DNA of 37,934 nucleotides, taken from the NCBI GenBank assembly GCA_027592945.1, contig JAQCJP010000006.1, forward strand, positions 1-37,934, written 5' to 3'. Below are positions 11,922 through 31,168 of this stretch, piece after piece. The notes under the pieces were generated by a model. That model ran no database searches. It saw only the letters and a list, made by a program, of their open reading frames with translations, and was not told where the DNA came from. The translations under genes and the position numbers were made by a program. The stretch's first letter is position 1. Each line of letters opens with the position of its first letter. The stretch is from Planctomycetota bacterium. Its GTDB lineage: Bacteria > Planctomycetota > Planctomycetia > Pirellulales > UBA1268.

Positions 11922-14198
11922 CTAGTCTGACATCACGACCGACCTGGGTCGGTCGTCTGGTCCACTGCCGAACGCTGTGTTGGGCGTCGGCCCCATCACA
12001 AACCGTAGCGTACCACCGGCCACGATATCGGGATGGGTGATATACGACTTGCTGTAGGGCTGGCCATTCAGCTCCACCGATTGGATGTAGCAGTTTTCGG
12101 GGCCGTTGTTCTCCGCGGTGATGGCGAATGTCCTCCCATCGGGCAGGTTGATCGTCGCCTTGTTGACCAGGGGGCTGCCGAAGACGTAGACGCCCGCCGC
12201 CGGGTTGACCGGATAGATGCCCAGCGCCGAAAAGACGTACCAGGCTGACATCTGGCCGCAGTCCTCGTTGCCCGAGAGGCCGTCTGGCTGATCCGAGTAG
12301 AGGGTGGTGAGGATCTCTCGCACGAGCCTGGCGGTCTTCCACTGCTGCCCGGCGAAGGCGTAGAGATAGGTGGTGTGGTGCCCAGGTTCGTTGCCGTGGG
12401 CATACTGCCCGATCAGCCCGGAGATGTCGGCCGACGCGGCCTCGCTCTTGACCGACTCGACGGAGAAGAGTTTGTCGAGCTTGTCACAGAAGGGCTCGTC
12501 GCCGCCGAGCAGTTCGATCAGGCCCTCGGGATCGTGGGGCACGAGCCACAGGTATTGCCAGCCGTTCCCCTCGCAGTAATCGTCGCGACGGTGTGCGGAC
12601 ACCACGGGGTCGAACGGCTCCCGCCACGTGCCGTCGGCAAGTTTGCCCCGCATAAATTTTGTTTCGGGATCGAAGTACTCCCGATACGCCTTCGCCCGCC
12701 CGGAGAAGTACTCGTAGTCATCCCGTTTGCCAAGCGCCTTGGCCATCTGGGCGATGCACCAGTCGTCGATGGCATACTCCATTGCCTTGGCGACCGACTC
12801 GCCCTCCTTGTCGGCGGGGATGTAGCCGATCGTCTTGATGTATTCGAGGCCGCGATCGTCACGCATCGCAGAACTTCTGATTGCCTCGTAGGCCCGCTCC
12901 GGGTCGGCTTCGAGCAGACCCTTGAAGTAGGCGTCGACCACCACCGGTACGGCGTGGTATCCGACCATCGTGTCGGTTTCGTTGGCCATCAGGTGCCAGA
13001 CCGGCAGTTTGCCCTGCTGGTCGCGGATGGCGAGCATCGTCTGAATGAAGTGGCCGACACGCTCCGGCTGCGTGAGTGTGAACAGCGGGTGCGCCGCGCG
13101 GTATGTATCCCACAGCGAAAAGATCGTATAGGTGTCGAACTGTGCATTGCGATAAACCTTCCCGTCGGCGCCGCGGTAGTCGCCGTTGCGGTCGTTGAAC
13201 AGCGTTGGAGCGATCATCGTGTGGTACAGCGCGGTGTAGAAGATCCGCTTCGTCCGGTCATCGGCCTGGATCTGGATGCGGCCGAGCTCTTCGTTCCAGG
13301 CGGCCTTGGCCGCGACGGCGACGGCATCAAAATCGGCGTTACCAGCCTCCGCCTCGAGATTCGCCAGCGCATTCTCCTCACTCACCGGCGACACGCCGAC
13401 CCGCACCAACACCTCGCCCGGCGAGCCTTCGTACGTGCCCATGGCCCGCAGCCCGCGGCCCTTGGCTGCGGCGGTCGTGGCGGCGGCCGCCCCTTCCCCA
13501 ACTTCCCTGTCACCGAGGAAGATGCGAAACTCAGCGAATGGCTTGGATGACTTGAGCGCAAAGTAGACCCGCTGATCCTTCGCCCAGCCCTTCGACCGGC
13601 GGGAGCCGACGACCGTCGATCCATCGACCCGGCGGATCTTCGTCTCCAAGGCACGACCAGCCCCATTCTCGAACTCGAGATCGATCGCCAGGCGAGCAGG
13701 CTTGTCGGCAGGGTAGCGGAAGCGGTGCAGGCCGACTCGCTCTGTGGCGGTCAGTTCGACGTGCACGTCGTGATCAAGGAGATCGACCGAATAAAAACCG
13801 GGGCGGACCTGTTCCCGGTCGTGGGTGTAGCGGCTGGCATACCCCGCGTCGGGATCCTTGAGCGAGCCGGGGCCGGTCACCAGCCGACCGGTATAGGGCA
13901 TCAGCACGATGTCGCCCAGATCGGCGATCCCTGTGCCGCTAAGGTGCAGCTGCGAGAAGCCCACGAGAATGCTCTCGGAGTAGTGGTAGCCCGAGCACCA
14001 GTCCCAGCCCTGGTGGAAGTTCGTCGGCCCGACCTGCACGGCACCAAACGGCACGCTGGCACCGACGAATACGTGGCCATGTCCGCCGGACCCGATCAAG
14101 GGATCGACGAGACGAGCCACGTCTTCCGCCTCGCACGAAAAAGCAACAACCCCCATCAAGATTGCCAGAAGCCAGGCAGCACGCGGAGAGCAGTTCAT
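11922..14198 (-). CDS. GH92 family alpha-mannosidase, exported
   Basis: A 758-residue exo-alpha-mannosidase of family GH92, Ca-dependent enzymes that trim mannose from N-glycans and mannans. A signal peptide (AAWLLAILMGVVAFSCEAED) precedes DVARLVDPLIGSGGHGHVF, the usual family start. Further signatures: FSQLHLSGTGIADLGD (about 81-96), the central helical barrel with FSLWDTYRAAHPLFTL, GNEPGHHTTYLYAFAGQQWK, and near the end NEDCGQMSAWYVFSALGIYP. Length is normal for the family. It is the last gene of a co-directional set, 39 bp behind the ROK kinase, itself overlapping a FucP-like permease. Together they can liberate, import and phosphorylate a hexose such as mannose. No strong Shine-Dalgarno sequence precedes the ATG; a palindrome occupies that place. 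The linkage cleaved (alpha-1,2, 1,3, 1,4 or 1,6) cannot be assigned by eye. Confidence 0.92.
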   Translation of the reverse strand: MNCSPRAAWLLAILMGVVAFSCEAEDVARLVDPLIGSGGHGHVFVGASVPFGAVQVGPTNFHQGWDWCSGYHYSESILVGFSQLHLSGTGIADLGDIVLMPYTGRLVTGPGSLKDPDAGYASRYTHDREQVRPGFYSVDLLDHDVHVELTATERVGLHRFRYPADKPARLAIDLEFENGAGRALETKIRRVDGSTVVGSRRSKGWAKDQRVYFALKSSKPFAEFRIFLGDREVGEGAAAATTAAAKGRGLRAMGTYEGSPGEVLVRVGVSPVSEENALANLEAEAGNADFDAVAVAAKAAWNEELGRIQIQADDRTKRIFYTALYHTMIAPTLFNDRNGDYRGADGKVYRNAQFDTYTIFSLWDTYRAAHPLFTLTQPERVGHFIQTMLAIRDQQGKLPVWHLMANETDTMVGYHAVPVVVDAYFKGLLEADPERAYEAIRSSAMRDDRGLEYIKTIGYIPADKEGESVAKAMEYAIDDWCIAQMAKALGKRDDYEYFSGRAKAYREYFDPETKFMRGKLADGTWREPFDPVVSAHRRDDYCEGNGWQYLWLVPHDPEGLIELLGGDEPFCDKLDKLFSVESVKSEAASADISGLIGQYAHGNEPGHHTTYLYAFAGQQWKTARLVREILTTLYSDQPDGLSGNEDCGQMSAWYVFSALGIYPVNPAAGVYVFGSPLVNKATINLPDGRTFAITAENNGPENCYIQSVELNGQPYSKSYITHPDIVAGGTLRFVMGPTPNTAFGSGPDDRPRSVVMSD

Positions 14199-14199
14199 T

Positions 14200-14224
14200 G
14201 GTATCGGTCTCTCGAGAGGTATCG
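14200..14224. repeat. palindrome flanked by direct repeats before the GH92 start
   Basis: CTCTCGAGAG (14209-14218) is a perfect 10-bp palindrome, flanked by direct repeats GGTATCG at 14200-14206 and 14218-14224. It fills most of the 39-bp gap between the ROK and GH92 genes, just upstream of the GH92 ATG. It could be an operator, or a hairpin affecting GH92 translation. Function is inferred from position only. Confidence 0.35.
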
Positions 14225-14237
14225 TGGAACAGTTGGC

Positions 14238-15344
14238 TCAGAGTTGATCGAGGGCAAAGGCGCAGGCTCCGACGGCGACCGCGCGGCTTGCCCCGAGCGC
14301 AGAGATGCCCACACCGACTCGTTTGCGAGGGTCGGTGATCACCGTGCGGCTGGAGTTCGGAATCGCGATAGCCTGGGTATCGCCGTGGAGAAACTCCCGC
14401 CGCTGAACAGGATCACCCAGGTCGTAGGCATCCTGAATCAGCCGAGCCGTCTGGCTCCCGTCAGAGCGGCCGATCGTGCCATTGAGCTCCGCCATGGCCC
14501 TCGGCAGGAACAATGGCGCTGCTCCCGCCAGGCCACCACCGATCACGGCCAGACCGTCGATGAGTGTCAGAACATTCGCCAGGACGTCGCCAACCACTTC
14601 GCCCAGTGTCTCGAACGCCTGCCGGGCGGCCCGCGAATCTCCCTCAATCTGGCCGGTCGCGATGTCGTAGATGTCCTTGGGTGAGAGGTCGTCCGCGGCC
14701 AGACCGGCGGCCGCGGCATAGGCGGAGCGAACTGCGCGGATGCTGGCCCCCTCCTCGGCGAAACAATCATTCCGCACCTTGTTTCGCAACAGCCAGAACT
14801 CTCCTCCCGCCGAGTTGTCGCCCGTCACCAGTCGACCGTCGATGACGATGCCGCCCCCCAGGCCGGTGCCGAGCGTCAGCCCGACAAGGTTGCGGTACCG
14901 CTTGGGGCTGCCGGCGGATTCCAGTTCACGGTTGATCGTCGGCAGGAGGCCGGCGATCGTCTCCCCGTAGGCAAAGAGGTCGCCGTCATTGTTCAGGAAC
15001 ACGGGCACCCCGAACCGTTCCTCAAGCAGCGGCCCGACCGCGACGCCCCCGCGATAGGCGGGCAGGTTGCCAACGTTGAAGATCACGCCTTTCGGATAAT
15101 CCGCCGGCCCGGGGAAGGCGAAGCTGATGGCGGCAGGCGACTCATCGATCTGGGTAATCAGTGTCTCGAAGCCGGCAACCAGATTCCGTAGGCTTGCGTC
15201 GAGATTCTCCGGTTCGGCAGGCAGCGTCACCGACCCGCCGATCGGCTGACCGTGCCGCATCGCGGAGAAGACGAAGTTGGTCCCACCGGCGTCGAGCGTC
15301 AGGACCACCCGCGGATCACTGGCAAGCGCCGCCTCCGTGATCAT
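14238..15344 (-). CDS. ROK family sugar kinase
   Basis: A 368-residue cytoplasmic ROK kinase that would phosphorylate a hexose with ATP. The phosphate-binding loop DAGGTN is at 18-23, the catalytic aspartate D120 lies in NNDGDLFAYGE, the second ATP-binding motif GTGLGGG is at 159-165, and sugar-contact GGE is at 180-182. The usual ROK zinc motif (CxCGxxGCxE) is absent; the equivalent region reads RNDCFAEEGAS, as in a zinc-less subgroup. No DNA-binding domain precedes the kinase, so it is an enzyme rather than a ROK repressor. ATG 15344 is preceded by AGGAGG and overlaps the permease stop by 4 bp (ATGA), so translation is coupled. The longer frame upstream lies inside the permease gene. Sugar identity (mannose, glucose or fructose) is not determined. 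Confidence 0.88.
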   Translation of the reverse strand: MITEAALASDPRVVLTLDAGGTNFVFSAMRHGQPIGGSVTLPAEPENLDASLRNLVAGFETLITQIDESPAAISFAFPGPADYPKGVIFNVGNLPAYRGGVAVGPLLEERFGVPVFLNNDGDLFAYGETIAGLLPTINRELESAGSPKRYRNLVGLTLGTGLGGGIVIDGRLVTGDNSAGGEFWLLRNKVRNDCFAEEGASIRAVRSAYAAAAGLAADDLSPKDIYDIATGQIEGDSRAARQAFETLGEVVGDVLANVLTLIDGLAVIGGGLAGAAPLFLPRAMAELNGTIGRSDGSQTARLIQDAYDLGDPVQRREFLHGDTQAIAIPNSSRTVITDPRKRVGVGISALGASRAVAVGACAFALDQL

Positions 15345-16831
15345 GTCGACCCTCCTGCGGCGGCAACCCGGCGGTGGCTCCACCAGCCGTAATAGGCGAT
15401 GTACAGGTAACAGGGAACCACCGTCAGGAACGCCGAGCGAATGCCGACCGCATCGCCGACGGCACCCATCAGGAGCGGCAGCAGAGCCCCGCCGACGATC
15501 ATCATGACCAGGAGTGAGGAGCCCTGCGACGTATGCTCGCCGAGGTCGTCGATCGCCAGCGTGAAGATGTTCGACCACATGATCGAGTTAAAGAGCCCCG
15601 TTCCGAGGGCTACCCACATCGCGACCCGGCCGGTTGAGAACACCGCGAGGACCAGCAGCACGCAGAGGACCATCGAAAACAAGGCCAGCACCGCCGGCGG
15701 CTTGCCGCGGGCGATGGCAAAAGCCCCGAGGCAAAGCGCGATCATCAGCACGAAGGGCCAGAGTTCCACGATCGGCAGGAAGCGGGCCTGCAACTGGCCG
15801 TCCTCGAATCGCAGGGCAGTCACGACGTAGATGATGCCCAGGAGAACCGCGGCTGTCACCAGGATCAGCACGGGCTTGCGAGCCGGTTGCGAGGTGTGGG
15901 CCATGGCGATCGCGCCGCACAGACGACCGATCATCGCCCCGCCCCAGTAGAAGGCGAGGTACAGGCTGGCGATGCCTTCCGACCAGCCCATCACGGCCGG
16001 GTCGCCCATAAAGCTCACGAGGTAGCTCCCAATCGCCACCTCGCCCCCGACGTACATGAAGATCGCCACCATGCCGAGCCTCAGTTGCGGGAAACCCAAC
16101 GCGCTGCCGGCCCCGTCGACGGCCACGGAACGCTGCGGGTTGATCCGCGGCAAGTGGACGAACGCCATCACCACCGCCAGCGCGAGAAACATGCCTCCGT
16201 AAATCAGGTATGGAATCCGGATCGCGTCCAACGTCACTTCCCCACCCCTGGCAAAAACCTCGTAGAGCAGAAGCCCGCCGGCGACAGGGGCGAGTGTCGT
16301 CCCCAGAGAGTTCAGCCCCTGGGCGAAGTTGAGCCGCGCCGAGGCGTTCTCCGGCCTACCGAGAATCGCCGCGTAAGGGTTGGCAGCGATCTGGAGGAGC
16401 GTTACGCCCGTCGCCAGCAGGAACAGCGCTCCCAAGAAGAAGGCGTACGACTCCGAGGCGGCCGCCGGTGCGAACAGCCCGCAGCCAGCCGCGCAGATGA
16501 CCAGCGCGGCAACGATCGTACGCTGATACCCGACGCGATTGATCGGATCGCCGCCACCCACCGAGAAGGCGAAATAGATCAACGAAATGACGAAGAACGC
16601 CCCAAAAAATGCGAACTGCACGAGCCCGGCCTGAAAATAGCTCAGGTCGAAACTCGACTTGAGGAAAGGGATCAGCACGTCGTTCATGACGGTGATGAAT
16701 CCCCAGAAGAAAAAAAGTGCCGTGACGGCGACGAAAGGCCCCGTGCCATCCTGCCTTGGAGCGGCCGCTTCGTTGCGGTGCTCGCTGGGACCTTCGTTGT
16801 CGCGTTTCGACGCGGAGTCGTGACGTTCCAT
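15341..16831 (-). CDS. FHS-type MFS sugar:H+ symporter (FucP/GluP-like)
   Basis: A 496-residue inner-membrane transporter with about a dozen hydrophobic segments. The first helix reads FVAVTALFFFWGFITVMND, which with NPYAAILG and NFAQGLNSLGTTLAP is typical of the fucose/glucose/galactose permease (FHS) group. A 35-40 residue polar N-terminal tail precedes the first helix. ATG 16831 has AGGA upstream and is preferred to GTG 16864. The stop overlaps the ROK kinase start by 4 bp. In context it should import the monosaccharide freed by the GH92 enzyme and other hydrolases. The upstream neighbour on this strand is a decayed GH99-like hydrolase, so the operon may once have started with that enzyme. 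Confidence 0.9.
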   Translation of the reverse strand: MERHDSASKRDNEGPSEHRNEAAAPRQDGTGPFVAVTALFFFWGFITVMNDVLIPFLKSSFDLSYFQAGLVQFAFFGAFFVISLIYFAFSVGGGDPINRVGYQRTIVAALVICAAGCGLFAPAAASESYAFFLGALFLLATGVTLLQIAANPYAAILGRPENASARLNFAQGLNSLGTTLAPVAGGLLLYEVFARGGEVTLDAIRIPYLIYGGMFLALAVVMAFVHLPRINPQRSVAVDGAGSALGFPQLRLGMVAIFMYVGGEVAIGSYLVSFMGDPAVMGWSEGIASLYLAFYWGGAMIGRLCGAIAMAHTSQPARKPVLILVTAAVLLGIIYVVTALRFEDGQLQARFLPIVELWPFVLMIALCLGAFAIARGKPPAVLALFSMVLCVLLVLAVFSTGRVAMWVALGTGLFNSIMWSNIFTLAIDDLGEHTSQGSSLLVMMIVGGALLPLLMGAVGDAVGIRSAFLTVVPCYLYIAYYGWWSHRRVAAAGGST

Positions 16832-16860
16832 GGTTTTCCTGCCGCTTGATGCGTCTGGCC

Positions 16861-17235
16861 TCACTCGGGTCGCGGAGTCTTCGCCTGCAGCCGCCGCCGG
16901 GCGCCAACAGCCGTCGCGCCGATAATCTGCTGATCGAAAAACTTACCACGGAGGCGGGGAATCTGCTCAAGGGGCCCGCCCTTGAGATTCTTCCAACTGA
17001 AGCCCGGAAAGATGACAGGGAGGTATTCGATTCCCCGTGCGCGACACCAGGCCAGGTCGGGGGCCCACCTTGCTGAGGCGTGGGCGCTGACCTGCTCGGG
17101 CGTGCGGTATCGGCCAACCGTCCAAGGACTCACGGCCTGCGCTGAAGCGGCGATCTCCTGAAGCATCGGATCGGGCACGGCGTCGCGGGTACCGGTCCGC
17201 CAGCCCGTGAGGTCATACATCACCGCGTAGACCCG
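16861..17235 (-). pseudogene. decayed GH99/GH71-like glycoside hydrolase
   Basis: Minus-strand codons directly behind the stop of the beta-repeat PEP-CTERM gene read VYAVMYDLTGWRTGTRDAVP, then AVSPWTVGRYRTPEQV, DLAWCRARGIEYLPVIFPGF and SWKNLKGGPLEQIPRLRGKF. These are internal pieces of the secreted GH99/GH71-like family often labelled xylosidase/arabinosidase. The N-terminal part is missing. The step from AVMYDLTGW straight to RTGTRDAVPDP looks like an internal deletion. After RGKFFDQQIIGA the frame becomes non-homologous and stops at 16861, losing the rest of the barrel. The open frame (ATG 17223 possible) is 120 codons against several hundred in intact enzymes. It sits between the PEP-CTERM gene and the permease-kinase-mannosidase operon, consistent with a former enzyme of that operon. 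Confidence 0.7.
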
Positions 17236-20100
17236 TCAACGCCGCCGCAAACGCTTCAGGACCCAGACCAGCCCTGCTCCCGCGAGCACCAGCGAGCACT
17301 CGGCGGGCTCGGGGACAGCCGCAACATCGGCGATGCCCGCCGTGCTCGGCGAGGCAGGAAAGTACCCACCGGCACCATAGGCGCCGCTCGAGTCGATCCC
17401 AATCAGGTCAAACACATTGGAGACGCCGTCGTAGTTGAAGTCACCCTGCCCCCAACTCGCCGGCTGCCCGCTGCCGAACTTCCCTGCCGAGTCGATCGCG
17501 ATCAGGTCAAAGACGTTGACCTGTCCGCTCAGGTCAGTATCGCCAGGAGCGGCGAAGGAGATGATGGCCGACCCGTCGCCATTGACGACATAGCCCACTG
17601 CACGGGTGCCTCCAGATGCGGCAGCGGCACTCGAGGTGATTCCAGCGGCACCATCCCACCCGCCACCGTTGCGGCCGGCCACGATGTCATTGACGAGCGT
17701 TTCGGCGGTGATGCCGCCGGCAGCCACCGAGACTTGTCCTGCACCCAGGTCGAGCAGGCCGCCACCGCTCCCCTCGGCAACGGCCAGGGTGCCCACGCCG
17801 ATACTCACCCGGGCGTCCTGCGGAAGCGCCAGTTCACCACCGGCATCGACCGAAACCGCGGCTGATCCGCTGAGGGTGCCGGCATTGATCGCCAGCGAGG
17901 CAATGCCCGAACTGCCGTCAATCGCCAGCGTCGATGCCGAGAGCGTGCCGCCATCCACGATCACCGAAGGGGAACGCATCGTGGTCGCCGGGTCGACGGA
18001 AAGGGTCGCTCCCGTCGCGACGGTGACAGTCGAGCTGCCGAGGGCGTCGGGATCGACGACCTCGAGCGTCCCGGCTGAAACGGTGGTCGGGCCGGTGAAA
18101 CTGTTGGCCGCGTCAAACACCAGCGTCCCCGCCCCGGTCTTGGTCACCGAATCTGCGACAGCGATCGTCGGATAGCCAGCCTCCGACTGGGTCTGACTGC
18201 CACTGGGCACGTCAATCACGATGTCGTTGGATGCCCCGGGCGTGAACACGAGCTGGAGATCATTTCCCACCAGGTCGACCGCAAACGTGCCCGTCCCGAA
18301 GGGATTGGCGAAGCCATCGGTCCCGTTCGCGGCTGCCGTCTCGATGAGAAACTTGTCTGCGGCAAAGCCGGTCACACCACCAGCCGCCGAGGCGAACGTC
18401 CAGGCGTAAGACTGCGAGGGGTCAAAGTTGGCAGCAGGCCCGCTGACATCGGGCCCCGTGCCCGACAGGGTCCAGAGGTTGAGCGTAAAGGGGTCGAAGG
18501 ACGTGGCATTGATGACGAGACTCCCCCCCACGCTCGCAAGATCCCAGGCATCTTCTCCGCCGGCCGTGCCAGTGCCGGAGAGCATCTGCCAGTTGTAGTT
18601 CCCACCCTCATCGAGCGTGAGATCACCGGCGAAGGTGAGCGTTCCTGGACTTGCTCCAGGCGCGAGGGTGGCGCCGAAACCGACCGCGACATCGCCGGCG
18701 ACCGTGCCCCCGCCAGCCAGTGTCTGATTCGCCGGCACGACGTAGGTGCCGAGGGCCGTCGCGTCGAAGGTGGCGGCCGCGGCCACGGCGACCGCGCTGC
18801 TGGTGGCAATCGATCCGCTCGCGGCCAGGACGAGCGTTCCCGCCTCGATCGTGGTAGCGCCGGTGTAGGTGTTGAAGCCTTCCAGAATCAAGCGGCCCGA
18901 GTCGCCCGTGCCCGTCTTGCCAAGCCCGCCAGCGCCGAAAAACGAACCGCCGAGAGTGACGTCGCCGACCACGTTCGTGGTCTGCTGCGACGTATCAACA
19001 ATCAGATCCCCGGTGAGCTCTCCGCCCGACAGGATGCTGAGTGCCGTCGTTGGCTGATCATCCCTGTTGAAGACGACCGTGCCGGACGAGGGAAACGTCA
19101 CATTGGCGTACGAGGCCTCTCCGCCTGAGGCGCGAGCGGAGATCCCGCCGCCGTCAGCGATGGTGATGGCATTCCCCACCGATCCGATGCCGGTCGCGTT
19201 GTTCTGGCTGACCAGCCGCACACCGCTGCGCACCTCTACGCTGCCCGTTCCGAGGCCATCGAGATTGGTGAAAAAGACTCTCGTGCCACCGCCCGCAAAG
19301 TCCCAGTTCACATCGGACGCCGTTCCGGTCTTGTTGGTCAAGCTAAAGCCGGAAGTGCCCGTGGTCGTGATGGTCTCGCCCGCGCCAGAAAAGCGGCCGG
19401 CATACACGAGATTGCCGCCATTGAGATCGAGCACACCGCCGCCGGCCCCGATCGTGACCCCACGGTTGGCATTCATTGTGAATCCGGCCGTCGTCTTCAG
19501 CGTCGCCCCATTGGCGATGGTGAGCCGGTCGGTAGCGGCCACCGTGTTGCCCAAGTTTCGATCCGCGCTGACCTGCAGGGTTCCCGCCGTCACCTCGAGA
19601 TTCGCCCCAAAGACGTTGACCCCGCCGAGCACCAGCGTGCCGGGGCCGTCCTTGACGATTGCAGAAGACTGGAGAGGAGAGCCCCCGAGGACCAGCCCGA
19701 TGGCCGCCGTTGCATCAGCGCCGAGGTCGCCCACGGTGATCGTGGCGATGCCCCCCAGATTGTTCATGTTGAGTTGGTTTGCACCATCCAGGATCCAGCC
19801 GCCCGACGACAACGGATCGGCGTCACCGAAGACGACGGCCCCGATATCGCGGTTTTGGGTGAGGCTCACCGTACGGGTTGCCGTGATGTCGTTGGCAAAG
19901 GTCGCCGTGGAGCCCCCGGCGGCAGCGGTAATCCCGTCCAACCAGTTGATGCTGTCGACCCACAGCCCGTCCGCATCGACATTCCAACTTCCGCTAGCAG
20001 CCAGCAACGGAGCAGCACACGCCCACGCGGCAATGCTTACGAAAAACCCCAGAACGCCTCGGCCGACCGGCGCACGCCCTCGATATGGTTTGCGACTCAT
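17236..20100 (-). CDS. large secreted beta-repeat protein with dockerin-like loops and PEP-CTERM
   Basis: A 954-residue exported protein. The N-terminus has a basic stretch and hydrophobic core (GVLGFFVSIAAWACAAPLLA) and then WNVDADGLWVDSINWLDG, the usual opening of planctomycete autotransporter-like proteins. Most of the chain is glycine/threonine/valine-rich beta-helix repeats. At least three autotransporter-associated strand repeats are seen (VKDGPGTLVLGGVNVFG; GRLILEGFNTYTGATTIEAG; KTGAGTLVFDAANSFTG). Residues 624-912 are a cassette shared with two other proteins here, ending in paired dockerin-like loops (GDTDLSGQVNVFDLI at 853; GDFNYDGVSNVFDLI at about 886). The PEP-CTERM tail is VPEP (929-932), a hydrophobic helix and KRLRRR. 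A strong ribosome site (AGGAGCAGGAAG) precedes ATG 20100. No catalytic domain is visible: probably a surface or matrix protein, or a binding scaffold for the neighbouring enzymes. Confidence 0.88.
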   Translation of the reverse strand: MSRKPYRGRAPVGRGVLGFFVSIAAWACAAPLLAASGSWNVDADGLWVDSINWLDGITAAAGGSTATFANDITATRTVSLTQNRDIGAVVFGDADPLSSGGWILDGANQLNMNNLGGIATITVGDLGADATAAIGLVLGGSPLQSSAIVKDGPGTLVLGGVNVFGANLEVTAGTLQVSADRNLGNTVAATDRLTIANGATLKTTAGFTMNANRGVTIGAGGGVLDLNGGNLVYAGRFSGAGETITTTGTSGFSLTNKTGTASDVNWDFAGGGTRVFFTNLDGLGTGSVEVRSGVRLVSQNNATGIGSVGNAITIADGGGISARASGGEASYANVTFPSSGTVVFNRDDQPTTALSILSGGELTGDLIVDTSQQTTNVVGDVTLGGSFFGAGGLGKTGTGDSGRLILEGFNTYTGATTIEAGTLVLAASGSIATSSAVAVAAAATFDATALGTYVVPANQTLAGGGTVAGDVAVGFGATLAPGASPGTLTFAGDLTLDEGGNYNWQMLSGTGTAGGEDAWDLASVGGSLVINATSFDPFTLNLWTLSGTGPDVSGPAANFDPSQSYAWTFASAAGGVTGFAADKFLIETAAANGTDGFANPFGTGTFAVDLVGNDLQLVFTPGASNDIVIDVPSGSQTQSEAGYPTIAVADSVTKTGAGTLVFDAANSFTGPTTVSAGTLEVVDPDALGSSTVTVATGATLSVDPATTMRSPSVIVDGGTLSASTLAIDGSSGIASLAINAGTLSGSAAVSVDAGGELALPQDARVSIGVGTLAVAEGSGGGLLDLGAGQVSVAAGGITAETLVNDIVAGRNGGGWDGAAGITSSAAAASGGTRAVGYVVNGDGSAIISFAAPGDTDLSGQVNVFDLIAIDSAGKFGSGQPASWGQGDFNYDGVSNVFDLIGIDSSGAYGAGGYFPASPSTAGIADVAAVPEPAECSLVLAGAGLVWVLKRLRRR

Positions 20101-20310: not shown

Positions 20311-23223
20311 CTACCGCCTGACCAGAAGATCGTTCGCCAGCAGCCGGATTCCCGTCGGAATCGCTGCTATCACAACAAGCCAGACCGTGGATGGCTCCGG
20401 AACGGCGACCGCTGAGGCTGGCCCAGAAGCGGCATTGTAGGATCCAGCACCGTAGACGCCGCTCGTCGTGATCTCCACCAGGTCGAGAACGTCAACCTTC
20501 CCGTCATCATTGAAATCACCCTCCTCCCAGGAGGCCGCCAGGCCCGAGTTGAACTTGCCGCCAACTGCAATGTTCACGACGTCGAAAATGTCGACCGTCC
20601 AGTCAAGGTTCGTGTCTCCCGCCGCGGCGTAGGCAATCGTAACCGAACCGTCATCATGCTCGACCCATCCCACCGTCCTCGAGTCGCTGCTGCCTGCGAC
20701 GACAGTCGACGTGATGCCTGCCGTGCCGTTCCAGGAACCGTCGCCCCGGCCGCTGCGGAGCGCCGCGACCAGGTCGTCCCGGTCAAGACCGGCAGCCACC
20801 GTGATCGCTCCGCTGCCGATATCGACGAGGCCACCGACCAGCGGCGACAGCCCCCCAAGCCTGGTCTCAAGCCCCGGCGCGACCGTGACCCGGCTGCCCG
20901 CCGCGACAGTCAACTGACTTGCCTGTAGGGCGTTGCTGCTCGCGATCCGAAGTTCTCCCTCCCGGACCGTCACCGTCCCCGTGAAGTCCTTGCCGCGGTC
21001 GACGAGGAGCGTCCCCTTCCCCGTCTTCACGAGGGGCATGGGGCCCGAAAAGATCGGATACCCCACCTGCCCCTGGGTCTGCAGTCCGTCGCCGACATCA
21101 ATCGTGACGACGGATCGATCGACGGCGAGTTCAAACACCAAAGCCGACTGCCGGAACGTGAACGGCGCCGGGTTTGTCGCGCTTGTCGGGGCCTCGATCG
21201 CCGAGATGTCCCAGCCGGCCGTCGCGTCGCCGAGGTCGCGATCCGGATTGAGCCTCACCTGAAGAAACCTGCCTCCCTCGTAATCCGGGTGGGATTCATA
21301 GAACGTACGGAGATAGCCTGCCAGCATGGTCGCCGACTCGTCGCTCGAGAAGGTGCGGGCCAGGTGGTTGCCCATCTTGATGATGTTGTCCTGCAACTTG
21401 AGGTTGTCGGACCGGTCGGCGCGATCGATCTCCACGTCGGCCTCGAGGTGCTCGGTCAGGCGGGTGTCGCCATCCGTGATGCCGATCGCCCAAAGGTCGG
21501 CGTTCACCCGGCTGACGTTCCCGGTCTGCCCCACGATGTGAAAACTCACGAACGCCCGATCGAGCGTGGCGGGATCGGCCAGGGGTGGCAGTTCGTAGGC
21601 AAGCACCGCCGACCGCCCCGAGGCGGTGCCGGGCAGGCTGGTGTCCGACCCGACACGGAGCGCGTCGGCCGCCTGGAGGGCGATGCCCCCCTCCGCCACG
21701 GTCATGTCGAGCAGGCTGCCGGCGATGACCTGTCGCTCAAAGGGATTGACACTGGCCGCCTCCCGCCGCAGCTCTTGCAGGCGAATCTGCATGGTGTCGA
21801 GCACCTGCTGCGTCTCAATGGGCAACGCCGCGACGGAACCTGGCAGGAGCAGATTGTTCACCTGGTACGGATCATTGACCAGGTCATAGAGTTCGTCGTA
21901 TTCCAGACCAGCCTCCGGATGAGTGACGTACATGTGCGTCTCGGTGCGGACCGCGTCCCAGCGTGGAATGGTCGGATGCTTCACTTCCGGGTAGTACTCG
22001 GCAAACACGGCGTCTCGATCGAACCCGCCCGAGCCGCTGAGGAGCCCGTTGAGTGGTTTTCCCTGCATCGCGTCCGGCACGGGAACACCGGCAGCCGTCA
22101 GGATGGTCGGGGCGAGGTCGATGTTGGACACGAGCGCGTCGGACGTCTGCCCTGATGCGATCCCCGGCCCCCGCATCAGCAACGGCACCCGGATCGACTC
22201 GTCGTACGCCAGCCGCTTGTCGCCCCGGCCGTGCTCGCCCCAAAAGAAGCCATTGTCGCTGGTGAAGATGACCAAGGTGTTGTCGTCGAGCCCCAGGGCC
22301 TCGAGGGCGTCGAGCACCCGGCCGATGTTGGCATCGATGTCTCGCATCATCTCCATCTGGCTGATCTGCTGCGGGTTGCCCATCGTGTTGTTGAGCGTGA
22401 GTCCATTCGAGCCGGGCAGGCTGTAGACGGGCTTTTCGTCGTTGATGTCGAATCCGCCATAGCTGGGCTGGGCGTTGGGCGGGCGATCGATCGGCTGGCC
22501 GGCATAGCGGCCGCCAGACTCGGTGTATTCCGGCCCATGGGGGCCATGGACGGCCTTGAAAGAAAGCGTCAGCGCGAACGGCTCGGACCGGAAACCGCCA
22601 GCGCCATGGTCTTGGAGAAAGTCGACGGCATAGTCCGTGAGGATGGTCGTGGTGTAGCCCGCTTCGGTCACGGTTCGCGGGGCGGCATCGTCTTCTTTCA
22701 CGCGGAGCCGGGGATCGGTATGCGTGCCTTGGCCCTGGAATGCCGCCCAGTAATCGAAGCCCTGCCGCGGCTCGAAATAGGAGTCCATGTGCCATTTCCC
22801 CACCATGCCCGTGCGATACCCGGCTTCCTGGAGCGCCCGCTGATAAATCGGGAGCCGCTCGTCCGGCACTGAATTAATGTCGTCATTGACCGTCAAGCCG
22901 TGGGCCACCGCGTATTGCCCGGTCATCAGCGATGCCCGCGACGGTGAGCAGAGCGGGCAGTTCACAAACGAGTTGAGGAAGTTGATGCCCTCGCCGGCGA
23001 CACGGTTGTCAAGATTCGGCGTCTCGACAAACGCATGACCAGTTGCTCCCAGGCCATCATGCCGCAGGTCGTCGACATAGAAGAGCAGGATGTTGGGCGG
23101 GGCGGCTGACTGGGCGTGTGCGCCGCCGCCGAAAGCGGCGTGTAGGGCGAGCAGGAGAAGGACTGCGGTGCTGCGGCACGATCTCGTTCCAGCACGCCAG
23201 ATCGGCTGCATCAGATCACTCAT
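20311..23223 (-). CDS. secreted sulfatase fused to beta-repeat, dockerin-like and PEP-CTERM tail
   Basis: A 970-residue protein, about twice a normal sulfatase. Signal peptide: STAVLLLLALHAAFGGGAHA (18-37). The sulfatase domain (about 42-470) has metal ligands D51-D52, formylglycine site CSPSR (C92-R96), GKWHMDS, KAVHGPHGPEY and TSDNGFFWGEHG. The matching of 450-500 to WDAVRTETHMYVTH and YDELYDLVNDPYQVNN is as in iduronate-2-sulfatase or choline-sulfatase-like enzymes. Residues about 500-700 are a beta-rich linker domain. Residues 704-930 are the shared cassette: one autotransporter-type strand repeat, then dockerin-like loops (GDTNLDWTVDIFDVV at 869; GDFNDDGKVDVLDLV). VPEP (941-944), a hydrophobic helix and a terminal RR form a PEP-CTERM. 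ATG 23221-23223 has AAGGAG seven bases upstream. It follows the FecR-like gene by 45 bp, so the sigma/anti-sigma pair and this enzyme are likely one transcript. It needs a sulfatase-maturing enzyme, not seen here. Confidence 0.92.
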   Translation of the reverse strand: MSDLMQPIWRAGTRSCRSTAVLLLLALHAAFGGGAHAQSAAPPNILLFYVDDLRHDGLGATGHAFVETPNLDNRVAGEGINFLNSFVNCPLCSPSRASLMTGQYAVAHGLTVNDDINSVPDERLPIYQRALQEAGYRTGMVGKWHMDSYFEPRQGFDYWAAFQGQGTHTDPRLRVKEDDAAPRTVTEAGYTTTILTDYAVDFLQDHGAGGFRSEPFALTLSFKAVHGPHGPEYTESGGRYAGQPIDRPPNAQPSYGGFDINDEKPVYSLPGSNGLTLNNTMGNPQQISQMEMMRDIDANIGRVLDALEALGLDDNTLVIFTSDNGFFWGEHGRGDKRLAYDESIRVPLLMRGPGIASGQTSDALVSNIDLAPTILTAAGVPVPDAMQGKPLNGLLSGSGGFDRDAVFAEYYPEVKHPTIPRWDAVRTETHMYVTHPEAGLEYDELYDLVNDPYQVNNLLLPGSVAALPIETQQVLDTMQIRLQELRREAASVNPFERQVIAGSLLDMTVAEGGIALQAADALRVGSDTSLPGTASGRSAVLAYELPPLADPATLDRAFVSFHIVGQTGNVSRVNADLWAIGITDGDTRLTEHLEADVEIDRADRSDNLKLQDNIIKMGNHLARTFSSDESATMLAGYLRTFYESHPDYEGGRFLQVRLNPDRDLGDATAGWDISAIEAPTSATNPAPFTFRQSALVFELAVDRSVVTIDVGDGLQTQGQVGYPIFSGPMPLVKTGKGTLLVDRGKDFTGTVTVREGELRIASSNALQASQLTVAAGSRVTVAPGLETRLGGLSPLVGGLVDIGSGAITVAAGLDRDDLVAALRSGRGDGSWNGTAGITSTVVAGSSDSRTVGWVEHDDGSVTIAYAAAGDTNLDWTVDIFDVVNIAVGGKFNSGLAASWEEGDFNDDGKVDVLDLVEITTSGVYGAGSYNAASGPASAVAVPEPSTVWLVVIAAIPTGIRLLANDLLVRR

Positions 23224-23268: not shown

Positions 23269-24855
23269 TCAACGTTCCCGAACAGGCTTTGTCACGCTGT
23301 CCCAGGTCGAGCCGATGCAGATGTCCCCAAACTCGATCCACGTCGCGCTGACGCACTCGAGCGACAGTTGATCAACCACCATGTCGGTCGACACGCTTTC
23401 GCTGACGACCGACCACTCCGTCGGCTCCTCGGAGTCGGCGAGTCGGTCCGCCGACATCAGCCGAACAAGCACCTGCTCGGGATTGGTGCGACCCGAGACG
23501 ATCTTGGCCACCACCGCGTAGGTCTCTCCCGGCGACTGGGGAAACGAGACCCGGGTCAACGCATCCGCGACCCGGACCATCGCTGCATCGTCTTTCCGGA
23601 GCATGATTTGAATCAATGCCCCCTGCTCAAGCTCCTCTTCGGTGGACAGGCCTCGAGCGCGGAGCACAACGGTCGCGCGGTGCTCGTCATTCCCAGGCTG
23701 CGGGCCACGCCTGACGAAAAACCGGAGGTAATGGATACCGTCTTGCGACAGATCGAGTGGCTTCTTGAACTGCCGGTGCGCGGCAGACCGACGCTCGCCT
23801 GGCGGCTTGCCCGACCCGTCGTGCCGGACAGCGACCGAGCCTGGGCCGGCCAGACCGGGCCGGACGATCCGCATCGCTCCCCGCCGCGACCGCCAGGCCT
23901 CGCTCCACCCGCTCCCAGATTGAAGCTTGGCGATCTCGTGTTCCTCGCCCCGGAAGTCATCAACCACGACCGGAACGTCGTCACGGACCTCAGGCGACGC
24001 GGTCTCGAGCGGGCGGGCCACCAGCGCGGCATCGATGGGAATTGACTCCCGCACCCCATTGCCGGCCCCAAATCGCATGCCGGCACCAGCCGCGATCCAC
24101 TCCTCCGTTCCCGAGCGGGCGGTTGGGCCGGACGTCCGCCGCACCGCACCCTCCGCCACGTGCAGTTCTTCCCCGTCGGCGTCGACCACGGCGGCGTATC
24201 GCGTCCCGATGTTCTTGAAGACGGAGTGCGGGGTCACGATCTCGATCGATTCGCTGAACTGATCACCACGAAACACGAACGTCCCGCGATGCACGGCCAT
24301 CGTCCGCCGCGACCGCAGGGTGAAAGCCGCCGGGCCGTCGAAAAAGACCCTCGCACCGCCGTCGAACTGAACCGTTACCGTGCCGGCCCTCAAAACGCAG
24401 GGCCCGGGCAGCATTCTTGTGCCTGTCGAGACAGGCCGATCGTTGAGCAGGGTGTTATCGCTGACCGCGACGATGGTCGCGACGTACCCGAGCGACCGCG
24501 TGGCTTCAGCCGCATCGGTCACGAGCGAAACAGGGCCGCCGCCGCCATTGCGGAGGCCGCCTCCCGGCCCACCGCCCGCCCCGACCCAGAGAAGAAGCAC
24601 GGCTGCCAGCAGCGACAGCGCCGCGACGGAAGCTCCCACCGCGGCCCACAGGCCCCTCGGTCGATCGGCAACGGCCGGCAGCGGCCCGGCATCAGAGAGC
24701 GCCGCGGTCATGTCCAGGTAGCGAATGTAGAACCGACGAACTTCCTCATCGGACCGGAGCAGCCCGGCCAGTTCGGTCGTCTTTTCCTCGGTGAGCGTCC
24801 CGTCGACCGTGGCCGAGAGCAATGCGTGAAGGTCCCGTCGATCAGACAGCTTCAT
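23269..24855 (-). CDS. FecR-domain anti-sigma-like membrane protein
   Basis: A 528-residue single-pass membrane protein. Residues 1-60 (LHALLSATVDGTLTEEKTTE, then LRSDEEVRRFYIRYLDMTA) form the short cytoplasmic helical region seen in planctomycete anti-sigma partners. A membrane helix follows (about 69-93). Outside lies a FecR domain (about 150-255: VQFDGGARVFFDGPAAFTLR, IVTPHSVFKNIGTRYAAVVD, LHVAEGAVRR). The C-terminal half (VVVDDFRGEEHEIAKLQSG, GWSEAWR) resembles the beta-sandwich start of planctomycete secreted proteins and may sense a ligand. ATG 24855 has GGAAGG upstream and overlaps the sigma gene stop by 4 bp (ATGA), so production of the two is coupled. Expected role: hold the sigma factor until an outside signal arrives. 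Without a TonB receptor nearby the signal source is unknown. Confidence 0.85.
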   Translation of the reverse strand: MKLSDRRDLHALLSATVDGTLTEEKTTELAGLLRSDEEVRRFYIRYLDMTAALSDAGPLPAVADRPRGLWAAVGASVAALSLLAAVLLLWVGAGGGPGGGLRNGGGGPVSLVTDAAEATRSLGYVATIVAVSDNTLLNDRPVSTGTRMLPGPCVLRAGTVTVQFDGGARVFFDGPAAFTLRSRRTMAVHRGTFVFRGDQFSESIEIVTPHSVFKNIGTRYAAVVDADGEELHVAEGAVRRTSGPTARSGTEEWIAAGAGMRFGAGNGVRESIPIDAALVARPLETASPEVRDDVPVVVDDFRGEEHEIAKLQSGSGWSEAWRSRRGAMRIVRPGLAGPGSVAVRHDGSGKPPGERRSAAHRQFKKPLDLSQDGIHYLRFFVRRGPQPGNDEHRATVVLRARGLSTEEELEQGALIQIMLRKDDAAMVRVADALTRVSFPQSPGETYAVVAKIVSGRTNPEQVLVRLMSADRLADSEEPTEWSVVSESVSTDMVVDQLSLECVSATWIEFGDICIGSTWDSVTKPVRER

Positions 24856-25388
24856 AGATGACCTTCCAGCAGCACAGAGCGATCGATGCACTCAAACAGG
24901 AGCCGCCGCACCCGCTCCAGGCTGCGGAACAGCGTCCGCCGACTCAGCGTGAATCGGCGAGCGATCTGTTCGGTCGGCACGCGATCGATGTACCGGGCCT
25001 GAATGAGCTTGTGGTCGCTGTCACTCAGCTTTCCAAGGCATTTTTGCAAGGCGACCAGCCGCTCGGCCAGGATCGGCTCCTCCTCCTCGCGAGTTTGAGC
25101 CAACAACTCGAGCAGCTCGGTCGGCAGCCGAACCATGCGGCGGGGCCGCTGCTGCTCGAGAAACTTCAGCACCTTGAGATACGCGAACCGACACGCCCAC
25201 GGCAGGAACGGCCGGGTCCGGTCATACTGGTCGAATTTCTGGGAGATCGCGATACAAACTTCCTGCAGCACATCCTTCGTATCCTCCTCGTGCGGAAGAA
25301 GCGTGTAGATGTAGCGACGCAGGTGGTCGTAGTTGGCGGTGATCAGCGTGACGAACAACTCCTGGTTGCCGTCATTGAACTGCGACAC
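24852..25388 (-). CDS. ECF-like RNA polymerase sigma factor (Rhodopirellula/Verrucomicrobium group)
   Basis: A 178-residue sigma-70 family protein with regions 2 and 4 only. Region 2: ELFVTLITANYDHLRRYIYT, then DTKDVLQEVCIAI and FLPWACRFAYLKVLKFLEQQ. Region 4: ALQKCLGKLSDSDHKLIQAR and the helix-turn-helix VPTEQIARRFTLSRRTLFRS. This is the layout of the planctomycete/verrucomicrobial ECF group usually paired with FecR proteins. The start is a GTG at 25388 with GGGAG eight bases upstream. It heads a run of minus-strand genes (FecR-like, sulfatase-PEP-CTERM, beta-repeat PEP-CTERM and possibly the sugar operon), so it may direct its own operon. The 258-bp region upstream is shared with the divergent DUF1559 gene, which may be another target. 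Confidence 0.92.
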   Translation of the reverse strand: MSQFNDGNQELFVTLITANYDHLRRYIYTLLPHEEDTKDVLQEVCIAISQKFDQYDRTRPFLPWACRFAYLKVLKFLEQQRPRRMVRLPTELLELLAQTREEEEPILAERLVALQKCLGKLSDSDHKLIQARYIDRVPTEQIARRFTLSRRTLFRSLERVRRLLFECIDRSVLLEGHL

Positions 25389-27187: not shown

Positions 27188-30100
27188 GTGAGAAGCCCAG
27201 ACGTCAGGCGAGCGGGCGTGCGGAGGCGTTGCCGGCCGGGCCAGAGCCGATCGCCGTCGGTGCTGACGCTCGAGCGGCTCGAGCCTCGGCTCCCGTTGGA
27301 TGCATCCGACGTCTTGGCCGACTTGTATGTCTGCTCGCTTGACCACGATCACGATGATGACTTCCTGGTTGCCACCGTCGGACACTCCGACGCTCTCCTG
27401 AGCCTATCGCCCGACGACCGGGTTCTCGTGATGGGCGGTTCACTCGACGGCGAACTTCCCGTGCCGTCGGGAACCGCCGCCGGGCTGCCGGAACTCCACA
27501 GCCTGCCCGGTGCCGCCACGTCGATCTACCTTGACTTCGACGGTCACGCGGATCTTGTGGCCTACGACACCGACGGCGACCCCACCAGCTTCAGCGCTGC
27601 CGAGGCTGCCGTGATCACGGAAGCCCACCGGCAGACGTCGGTCTTCTTCGCGATGTTCGATGTCAACGTCACCACGGTCAAGCCGACGGGGCCGTTCGCC
27701 TGGATCGTGATCAGCGGCGACATCGCCGGCGGCAGTAGCAACGTGGGGGTGTTCCCAAACTCGGCACCCAGATCCTGGATCAATGCCGAATCCGCGGAGA
27801 ACCGGGTGTCCGGGATCGTCCACGAAATTGGACACAACTTCGGCCTGCTCCACCAGTCCGATTACGACGACGAGGGCAATCTCACCAGCGAATACAGCAA
27901 CGGGCTCGACGCCCTCCACGGCGCGCTGATGGGGGTGGACTACCGCCGCGATGTCCAGAAATGGTTCATCGGCCATCCGAGCACCTCACCGAGCGTCCTC
28001 CAGGACGACATCGCGGTGATCGCCAACGTGATCAAGCGGTACCAGCCGGCCGGAGGCGACGGGTTTCGGGCCGACGATCACGGCGGCACGTTCGCCACGG
28101 CCACCACCTTGACCGCCATCACCGGCGGTCGATCGGCCTCGGGCATCATCGAGCGGATGACCGATGTCGACACGTTTTCATTTTCGACGTCGGGAACCGG
28201 CACGATCATCTCCGTCGTGCCCACCAAGCCGTCGGGGCTTGACGCAAAGCTGGAGGTGTTTGATGCCGGCGGGGCCTTGATCGCGGCGAGCGACAGCGAT
28301 GCAAACGAGCAGCAGCTCGTCCTGCCACCCGGAACCGGCACCTGGTATGTGTCGGTTTCGAGCCATGGCAACTACGGTGATCTCGGCAGCTACGACCTCT
28401 CGGTGAACGACCTGCCGGCAGGCTGGACCTCGGCTGACATCGGCAAAACCGAGCTCCTGGGCGACGCGGCCTTCGGGGCTGGCGTCTTCACCGTGGCGGG
28501 AGCCGGGGCGGCGGTGGGGGGCACGAGCGACGCCTTCCGATTCGCCTGGCAGACGCTCACCGGCAACGGCTCGATTACGGCTCGCGTGACTCAAAACCAG
28601 AATACCGACCCGCTGGCCAAGGCTGGGATCGAGATCCGTGAGTCACTGGCGGCGAACTCCAAGCACGTGGCGATGGTCACCACGGCCGCGCGGGGGCCGC
28701 AACTGATCTCGCGAAGCACGACCGGGGGCACCTCGTCGATCGTGGGCAGCCCCGCCGCTTCATTCTCCCCGACCTGGCTGCGGCTGGATCGAACTGGGAA
28801 CGTGATCACTGCCTCTCGTTCCCCTGACGGTGTCTCGTGGACCACGGTCGGATCGGTCACGGTCGGGATGAGCGCGACGGTCCGGATCGGACTCCTCACC
28901 TCGGCCCACGATGCCAACGCCGTCAATACGGCACGCTTCGACAACATCTCGCTGACGGGCAACCTCGACCCGCCGGAAGTGGTCAACTCGCTCTCCCCGC
29001 CTGCCGGCGTGACGGTCAGGCAGGGGGGCGGCGCGTCGCTTGTCGTTCGCTGGCAGCCAGTGACGGGCGCGACCGGCTACGTGATCGAGCGGTCGGAGAA
29101 CGGAGTCGACTTCAGCAGCGTCTTCACCGCGGCGCCCGCGGAGACGTCCTGGACAGACATCGGCCTCCCGGGAGCGCTCCGGTATTTCTACCGGGTGCGG
29201 TCCCTCGGCAGCGCGGGCCAGTCGGCGGCTTCAGCGGTCGTCAGCGAAATCAATCGGCCGAGTCCTGTGACCAGTGCATCGATCGCGCCGCTCTCCGATA
29301 CCCAGCTGATCCTCAACTGGCGGGACACCAACGGTGAGACCGGATACCGGATCGAGCGGTCCACCGACAACGCGACCTACACGCAGATCTCGACGGTGGC
29401 TGCCAATGTGCCCAGCTACACGGCGGGCGGTCTCGCCGCGGGCACGCCCTACTGGTTTCGAATCTCGCCGATCACCGCGACCGGTGACGGCAATCCTGTG
29501 ATGGTCACCCGCAGGACCACCGGGCAGCAGGCCGTCGGTGAACTCTGGTTTGCCTCGAAGACCTCGTCGTCGCTCGGCATCGAATGGTCGGCGACCGCGA
29601 CGGCGACCAGCTACCGCATCGAGCGGTCGCAAAACGGCACGAGTTTCACGACGCTCGCATCCGTCCCGGCTGGCACGCTCACCTATCTCGACACGTCCGT
29701 CAACGTGATCGGAAGGTATTACTATCGGGTGGTTGCGATCGTGAGCGGCACTGCCGCTGATCCCTCGCCGACGATCTTCACGGCGGTGCCGGCGGTCGCC
29801 ACGCTGCCAGCGCCATGGACCACGGCCGATGTCGGAGCTGCAGCAGGCGAGGGGGCGACCGGGCTGCAGAGCGGCAAGTTCATCCTCATTTCCAGCGGCA
29901 CGGCCATCGGCGGGCCGGCCGACTCCTTCCGGTTCGTTTCCCAGACCCTCGTTGGTGACGGAACGATCGTCGCCCGCGTTGCTTCGCTCGAGAACACGGG
30001 AAGCTGGCCGAAGGCGGGCCTGATGATCCGGGAGTCGACCGACGTCGACGCACGACAGGCAGCCTTGGTCGTCTCGCCGGCCAACGGGATCACTTGGCAC

Positions 30101-31168
30101 TATCGGCACAACATCGGCGGCGCCGGGGTCGTTGTCGCCGGCCCGACCGGCCAGGCCGCGCCGGTGTGGCTGAAGCTCGTCCGGGAAGGCAGCCGGTTCA
30201 CCGGTTTCTGGTCGACGGACGGCGTTTCCTGGACGGAAGCCGGCAGCACCACGATTGCGATGGGCACAACGGCGGTGATTGGACTGGCGGCGACCAGCGA
30301 CACGGCCACCCGTCTCGGTCGGGCTGAGTTCACCGATGTCGCCGTCACGATTCCAACGACCGACCAAGTGGTGACCGTTGCTGCCGGGCAGACGGCGACC
30401 GAGCCGGGAGGCCGCACGCACGCTGGTGCATTGATCAAGCGGGGAACCGGCCAGCTCATATTGTCAGGCGGCAACACCTACACCGGTGGCACCATCGTCG
30501 AGGGCGGCGAACTGGTGATCCGCGATCCCGCCGCCCTCGGGGCTGGCAATCTCGAGATCCGGGCGAATGGCCGCGTGACGCTGGATCTCGGCACCGGCCA
30601 ACTGGCCCTTGCCCAGATGGCGATCCTCGGCACGGGCGTTCTCGATCTCGCCAGCGGCTCGATCAGGCTCACCCCGGGCACCTACGACCTTGCCGAGATC
30701 CGCGACCAGATCCTCTTGGCACGCGGCGGCGGCAGTTGGACCGGGCCTGGAATCACGACATCGACCAGTGATCTGGGGAACTCCCGGGCAGTCGGGTATC
30801 GGCTTCTCCAGGACGGCTCGCTCGTCGTGGGCTATGCCGCCATCGGCGACGCAACCATGGACGGTAGCGTGAATGTGCAGGACCTGATCGCGATCTCGAC
30901 CTCCGGTGCGTATGGCGCGGGGGCTGGCGACGCCGGCTGGTGGCAGGGAGACTTCAATTACGACGGCCTGGTCAACGTCAGCGACCTGATCGGTCTGTCG
31001 ACGTCGGGCCTGTATGGCAGCGGCTCCTACCTCCCGATCGCCAGCGACCCGACGACCGCGGCCGAGGGCCTGGGCCAGCTGGCATGGATGGCCTACGCTG
31101 AAGAGATCTCCGAGGACTCTACCACGGAGGAGAAGAGGGCCGGCGACATCGTCGGCGGTGGATCGTGA
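27188..31168 (+). CDS. giant secreted zinc metalloprotease with LEPR-XLL motif, PPC, FN3 and dockerin-like modules
   Basis: A 1326-residue protein. Order seen: N-terminal LEPR-XLL motif (LEPRLPLDA, 31-39), a planctomycete export-associated signature without a classical signal peptide; a metzincin-like protease domain with HEIGHNFGLLH (212-222), the HExxHxxGxxH zinc site; a PPC-type domain (about 295-406); a beta-sandwich DUF1349/LamG-like module (about 411-592); three fibronectin III repeats (about 603-868), each with a YxIERS motif (YVIERSENG, YRIERSTDN, YRIERSQNG); a second copy of the beta-sandwich (about 876-1056); and the shared cassette (1059-1283) with one autotransporter-type repeat and paired dockerin-like loops (GDATMDGSVNVQDLI at 1220; GDFNYDGLVNVSDLI). 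It ends in an acidic tail without PEP-CTERM. The start is GTG 27188. Its stop overlaps the next sulfatase start (GTGA), so they are coupled. Confidence 0.88.
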   Translation: MRSPDVRRAGVRRRCRPGQSRSPSVLTLERLEPRLPLDASDVLADLYVCSLDHDHDDDFLVATVGHSDALLSLSPDDRVLVMGGSLDGELPVPSGTAAGLPELHSLPGAATSIYLDFDGHADLVAYDTDGDPTSFSAAEAAVITEAHRQTSVFFAMFDVNVTTVKPTGPFAWIVISGDIAGGSSNVGVFPNSAPRSWINAESAENRVSGIVHEIGHNFGLLHQSDYDDEGNLTSEYSNGLDALHGALMGVDYRRDVQKWFIGHPSTSPSVLQDDIAVIANVIKRYQPAGGDGFRADDHGGTFATATTLTAITGGRSASGIIERMTDVDTFSFSTSGTGTIISVVPTKPSGLDAKLEVFDAGGALIAASDSDANEQQLVLPPGTGTWYVSVSSHGNYGDLGSYDLSVNDLPAGWTSADIGKTELLGDAAFGAGVFTVAGAGAAVGGTSDAFRFAWQTLTGNGSITARVTQNQNTDPLAKAGIEIRESLAANSKHVAMVTTAARGPQLISRSTTGGTSSIVGSPAASFSPTWLRLDRTGNVITASRSPDGVSWTTVGSVTVGMSATVRIGLLTSAHDANAVNTARFDNISLTGNLDPPEVVNSLSPPAGVTVRQGGGASLVVRWQPVTGATGYVIERSENGVDFSSVFTAAPAETSWTDIGLPGALRYFYRVRSLGSAGQSAASAVVSEINRPSPVTSASIAPLSDTQLILNWRDTNGETGYRIERSTDNATYTQISTVAANVPSYTAGGLAAGTPYWFRISPITATGDGNPVMVTRRTTGQQAVGELWFASKTSSSLGIEWSATATATSYRIERSQNGTSFTTLASVPAGTLTYLDTSVNVIGRYYYRVVAIVSGTAADPSPTIFTAVPAVATLPAPWTTADVGAAAGEGATGLQSGKFILISSGTAIGGPADSFRFVSQTLVGDGTIVARVASLENTGSWPKAGLMIRESTDVDARQAALVVSPANGITWHYRHNIGGAGVVVAGPTGQAAPVWLKLVREGSRFTGFWSTDGVSWTEAGSTTIAMGTTAVIGLAATSDTATRLGRAEFTDVAVTIPTTDQVVTVAAGQTATEPGGRTHAGALIKRGTGQLILSGGNTYTGGTIVEGGELVIRDPAALGAGNLEIRANGRVTLDLGTGQLALAQMAILGTGVLDLASGSIRLTPGTYDLAEIRDQILLARGGGSWTGPGITTSTSDLGNSRAVGYRLLQDGSLVVGYAAIGDATMDGSVNVQDLIAISTSGAYGAGAGDAGWWQGDFNYDGLVNVSDLIGLSTSGLYGSGSYLPIASDPTTAAEGLGQLAWMAYAEEISEDSTTEEKRAGDIVGGGS

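Follow-up and report, generated by a model that had tools for sequence, protein, structure and literature searches.

A sulfatase joined in one reading frame to a PEP-CTERM-like tail in an aquatic planctomycete and its relatives

Does a sulfatase that ends in a PEP-CTERM-like sorting signal stay with the cell that makes it, and is it a single protein in the first place? The question is raised by one open frame in the window (the whole stretch of 37,934 nucleotides that we analysed), which derives from an aquatic planctomycete bacterium. In the encoded protein, a signal peptide is followed by the sulfatase, an unnamed domain, one beta repeat, a dockerin-like pair of calcium loops and, at the C-terminus, a VPEP motif, a hydrophobic stretch and basic residues. 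We refer to the following features:

20311..23223, minus strand: coding sequence of the sulfatase fusion protein, 970 aa (Pfam matches and orthologs)
23110..23223, minus strand: predicted signal peptide, aa 1–38, with hydrophobic core and AHAQ (from sequence and hydropathy)
21814..23097, minus strand: catalytic sulfatase core and SGSH_C, aa 43–470, with the presumed formylglycine cysteine C92 in CSPSR (Pfam and motifs)
21079..21768, minus strand: unnamed domain, aa ~486–715, present in this genus (probe searches; distant relatives in another planctomycete)
20944..21033, minus strand: single autotransporter-type beta-strand repeat, PATR/TIGR02601, aa 731–760 (borderline profile match)
20482..20619, minus strand: dockerin-like pair of calcium-binding loops, aa 869–914 (motifs; under the Dockerin_1 cut-off)
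20314..20406, minus strand: PEP-CTERM-like sorting signal AVPEPS...RR, aa 940–970 (profiles and ortholog conservation)
17236..20100, minus strand: neighbouring PATR-repeat/dockerin-like/PEP-CTERM protein (profiles; tail comparison)
23269..24891, minus strand: putative sigma regulator resembling FecR, lying 45 bp upstream of the sulfatase gene (position; Pfam FecR below cut-off)
24852..25388, minus strand: ECF sigma factor of the Rhodopirellula/Verrucomicrobium family TIGR02989 (profile match)

The 970-aa frame opens with ATG, has GGAGAG immediately 5' of this start, and shows a coding-like base composition by codon position over its entire length. A second assembly (locus L089; JAQBZA010000041.1, isolate casp150-mb.45) matches the window gap-free at 99.87% identity over 12,581 bp, and contains the same 985-aa stop-to-stop frame. 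Using the unnamed domain as a probe of 60 genomes, we obtained matches in the source genome and in four congeners, G005, G013, G014 and G021; the orthologs belong to MAGs recorded under the names ZE-3NOV15, LaPlata and DEBay. The G021 match is a piece at a contig edge and comprises a tail fragment. In G005, G013 and G014 the unnamed domain and the sulfatase lie in a single open frame (979, 1020 and 1032 aa, respectively), whose products are 67%, 64% and 62% identical to that of the window frame; G005 and G014 share its architecture, and G013 has a changed tail. The join of sulfatase and tail is real and common to related species, and the physical fusion that the preliminary description had proposed is thus borne out by three congeners and a second assembly. 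The window does come from an assembly of 326 contigs, but the gap-free match in another assembly and the three fused orthologs lead us to reject a misassembly or frameshift that joined two genes, the chance of which we regard as negligible.

The catalytic half is complete, as had been claimed from its motifs. Pfam Sulfatase (PF00884) matches aa 43–380 with 181.8 bits and SGSH_C matches aa 329–470 with 98.7 bits, both above the curated cut-offs; the full-length domain, the CxPSR motif and the metal ligands place the protein among the type I sulfatases. By motif, the catalytic residues are D51/D52, C92 (in CSPSR), K143/H145 (in GKWH), H226, D323/N324 and K336. The source genome also encodes FGE-type proteins (eight PF03781 matches, the best with 268 bits, 1.2e-79). 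The length beyond that of a plain sulfatase, put at about 450 residues in the earlier account, measures ~480 aa.

Much of this additional length resists classification. The region aa 486–715 matched no family in a Pfam search, and among 392 genomes of the phylum the unnamed domain retrieved only the window's own copy and two weak matches, both in one other genome. Distant relatives of the domain occur in another planctomycete, at the C-terminus of a FecR-like protein and in a small secreted protein; the relative on the FecR-like protein hints at a shared extracellular module. Two AlphaFold runs on the second half (with 3 and 4 sequences) returned mean pLDDT values of 39 and 40.

We turn to the C-terminus, in which VPEP occupies aa 941–944. 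The TIGR02595 profile (cut-off 16) gives 18.6 bits for the isolated tail and 14.5 bits in context, Pfam PF07589 gives 13.8–17.4 bits versus a cut-off of 20.7, and an Arg interrupts the hydrophobic stretch. Support for a PEP-CTERM signal, borderline for the window copy by its own score, is strengthened because VPEP, the hydrophobic stretch and the basic residues recur in three orthologs with a read-through C-terminus (G005, G014 and G021); to this extent the sorting signal of the preliminary description is supported. The source genome contains ~50 PEP-CTERM tails above cut-off, versus none in 14 control genomes.

The preliminary description also pointed to an exosortase as the partner to look for. 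A profile search (PF09721) of the source genome contigs returned no match; the same type of search found an exosortase in 19 of 21 congeners. When the G013 exosortase region was aligned to the source genome, contig C156 covered one side to its end and contig C23 the other. The opening 76 bases of C23 translate into a 25-residue stretch 56–64% identical to congener exosortases, and C156 begins within the gene next to the exosortase, with conserved synteny. We read this as an exosortase gene that is present and broken by the assembly, known from a 25-residue piece without the catalytic residues; the profile match is missing because the contig break falls in the gene. Absence of an exosortase is accordingly rejected: despite the PF09721 result, synteny across C23 and C156 places the start of the gene at a contig end.

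Bearing in mind these observations, we consider it probable that the protein is a type I (formylglycine) sulfatase, exported by Sec, and that it has gained the surface cassette with which other exosortase substrates of its genome end; it would be found at the surface, in the matrix or released. What we infer of its processing, location, substrate and regulation is as follows. The signal peptide would be removed after Sec export, and an FGE-type protein would convert C92 to formylglycine; the VPEP/hydrophobic/basic tail would lodge the protein in the inner membrane, where exosortase would cleave it at VPEP, and the mature protein would exit the cell. The mature enzyme would then act on a sulfated glycan, either on the outer surface of the cell or within the exopolysaccharide matrix, and the unnamed domain, beta repeat and calcium loops would serve as spacers or for attachment. 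Its expression may be linked to the adjoining ECF sigma/FecR-like pair.

The preliminary description went further: a PEP-CTERM tail was said to keep the enzyme, and with it the product, with its producer. This is unsupported as stated. PEP-CTERM is a signal for processing, and its C-terminal anchor helix has been proposed to be cleaved off (Haft et al. 2006, PMC1569441); in Nostoc, medium passed through a 0.2-um filter contained 12 of 35 PEP-CTERM proteins, several of them being reduced without exosortase (PMC12188702); for these two reasons, retention by the cell can only be inferred. The Nostoc data favor a different reading, that PEP-CTERM is a transit step from which exosortase frees the sulfatase into the medium, so that its products are shared. 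We treat this as a credible, though unlikely, outcome: the Nostoc authors also argue for attachment of PEP-CTERM proteins to the outer membrane or to polysaccharide (PMC12188702), PEP-CTERM proteins of Zoogloea and Aquincola reportedly keep EPS attached to the cell surface (as cited in PMC12188702), and the beta repeat and calcium loops would seem to resemble matrix modules.

The tail is not confined to the sulfatase. Its last part is 48% identical over 149 aa to the tail of the adjacent 17236–20100 protein, and 39% identical over 212 aa to a protein at 27188–31168; on account of these identities, the tail looks like a cassette common to surface proteins of the source genome. The 27188–31168 protein (plus strand, 1326 aa) has fibronectin III, PPC, DUF1349 and weak metallopeptidase matches, and shares the repeat/dockerin-like tail of the sulfatase without its PEP-CTERM end. 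In the G013 ortholog (L073:210-563), an in-frame stop splits the sulfatase and repeats from a 117-aa dockerin-like/PEP piece, and the repeat section differs from that of the window. Since this stop precedes the dockerin-like/PEP part, the tail may be dispensable or the G013 copy may be defective. The kinship with the adjacent gene's tail, the altered G013 copy and the weak score of the window's C-terminus could together be accommodated by an ordinary periplasmic or secreted sulfatase whose tail is a neutral by-product of recombination with the neighbouring PATR/PEP-CTERM gene. We find this improbable, as VPEP, the hydrophobic stretch and the basic residues are kept in the window and in G005, G014 and G021, and the second half is 55–62% identical among the window, G005 and G014.

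The acquired-cassette reading leaves regulation to be considered. The FecR-like gene overlaps the ECF sigma factor gene; Pfam FecR scores its product at 13.4 bits versus a cut-off of 24, and the label comes mainly from position. A sigma/FecR-like pair also adjoins the ortholog in two congeners, in opposite orientation in G013 and on the same strand but in another order in G014. Proximity of this pair to the sulfatase is conserved; a shared operon is not, because order and orientation differ in these two genomes. We give little credence to a more specific proposal, in which an exosortase-displayed, surface- or matrix-linked sulfatase would be controlled by its own ECF sigma/FecR-like sensor, the FecR-like protein sensing the glycan that the enzyme processes. 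Near the sulfatase, at 11922–16864 of the window (minus strand), are genes for a GH92 glycosidase, a ROK-family kinase and a GluP/FucP-type sugar transporter.

The combination of sulfatase and PEP-CTERM is rare in the source genome and in the sampled congeners. Genome-wide counts, taken from search tables, give 35 sulfatase matches in 29 frames of the source genome, among which the window's frame is the only intact case with a PEP-CTERM match. In a selected sample of other long-frame congener sulfatases, none has a C-terminal VPEP tail, and many are double sulfatases. Two sulfatase domains per open frame recur in the genus: L047 (C21), L048 (C178) and L049 (C323), and congener loci such as L095, L097, L106 and L110. 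A second and different sulfatase/PEP-CTERM case is an open frame of 1486+ aa that runs to the end of contig C7 (L051:2476-6933), in the order PATR-type repeats, dockerin-like loops, VPEP tail, in-frame sulfatase and the start of another repeat segment; in 22 genomes of the genus, matches to it span the sulfatase part only, with no fused tail. At L050:2485-5403 (C234), a sulfatase stands behind a segment that, by eye, resembles an FAD-dependent oxidoreductase. In the part of the literature naming both that we covered, we found no description of a sulfatase with a PEP-CTERM tail; on this scope we make no claim of first description.

Few PEP-CTERM proteins contain a recognisable enzyme, which makes their fate difficult to follow by assay. 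A sulfatase whose activity can be measured and which naturally ends in a PEP-CTERM tail would be a handy reporter of the location of exosortase substrates in planctomycetes; it would also allow a test of whether polysaccharides are desulfated on the surface or in the medium.

How does the fusion protein compare with known systems? It is like the dockerin enzymes of cellulosomes in its two calcium-loop motifs near the C-terminus. It differs in scoring 13.0 bits with Dockerin_1 versus a cut-off of 22.9, for which reason we call the loops dockerin-like only, and no cohesin (PF00963) was detected in the source genome assembly at E 0.1; the "dockerin" label of the preliminary description does not hold, and a cellulosome-like dockerin is not supported. 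Like the PATR/TIGR02601 beta-strand repeat surface proteins it has a repeat, of borderline score (TIGR02601, 19.9–23.4 bits versus a cut-off of 19.85; PATR, 14.7–17.1 bits, below its cut-off of 27), plus a tail common to two neighbours in the window; it differs in having one repeat only, and no autotransporter barrel profile matched it. Among solved type I sulfatases, the best matches are the mucin-desulfating sulfatase 7p24 and the GlcNAc-6-sulfatase 5g2v, which have the full catalytic core and motifs in common with it; their chains are 518–534 aa, whereas the fusion protein continues for ~480 aa beyond its catalytic part. This similarity is a lead to the substrate, not an assignment. Finally, the fusion protein resembles the PEP-CTERM/exosortase substrates (TIGR02595, PMC1569441) in having a signal peptide at one end and VPEP, a hydrophobic stretch and basic residues at the other; its genome, too, encodes numerous PEP-CTERM proteins as well as an exosortase. 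The window copy departs from them in its weak score, and in one more respect: PEP-CTERM proteins were reported to show little homology with proteins already known (Haft 2006, PMC1569441), whereas this one contains a known enzyme.
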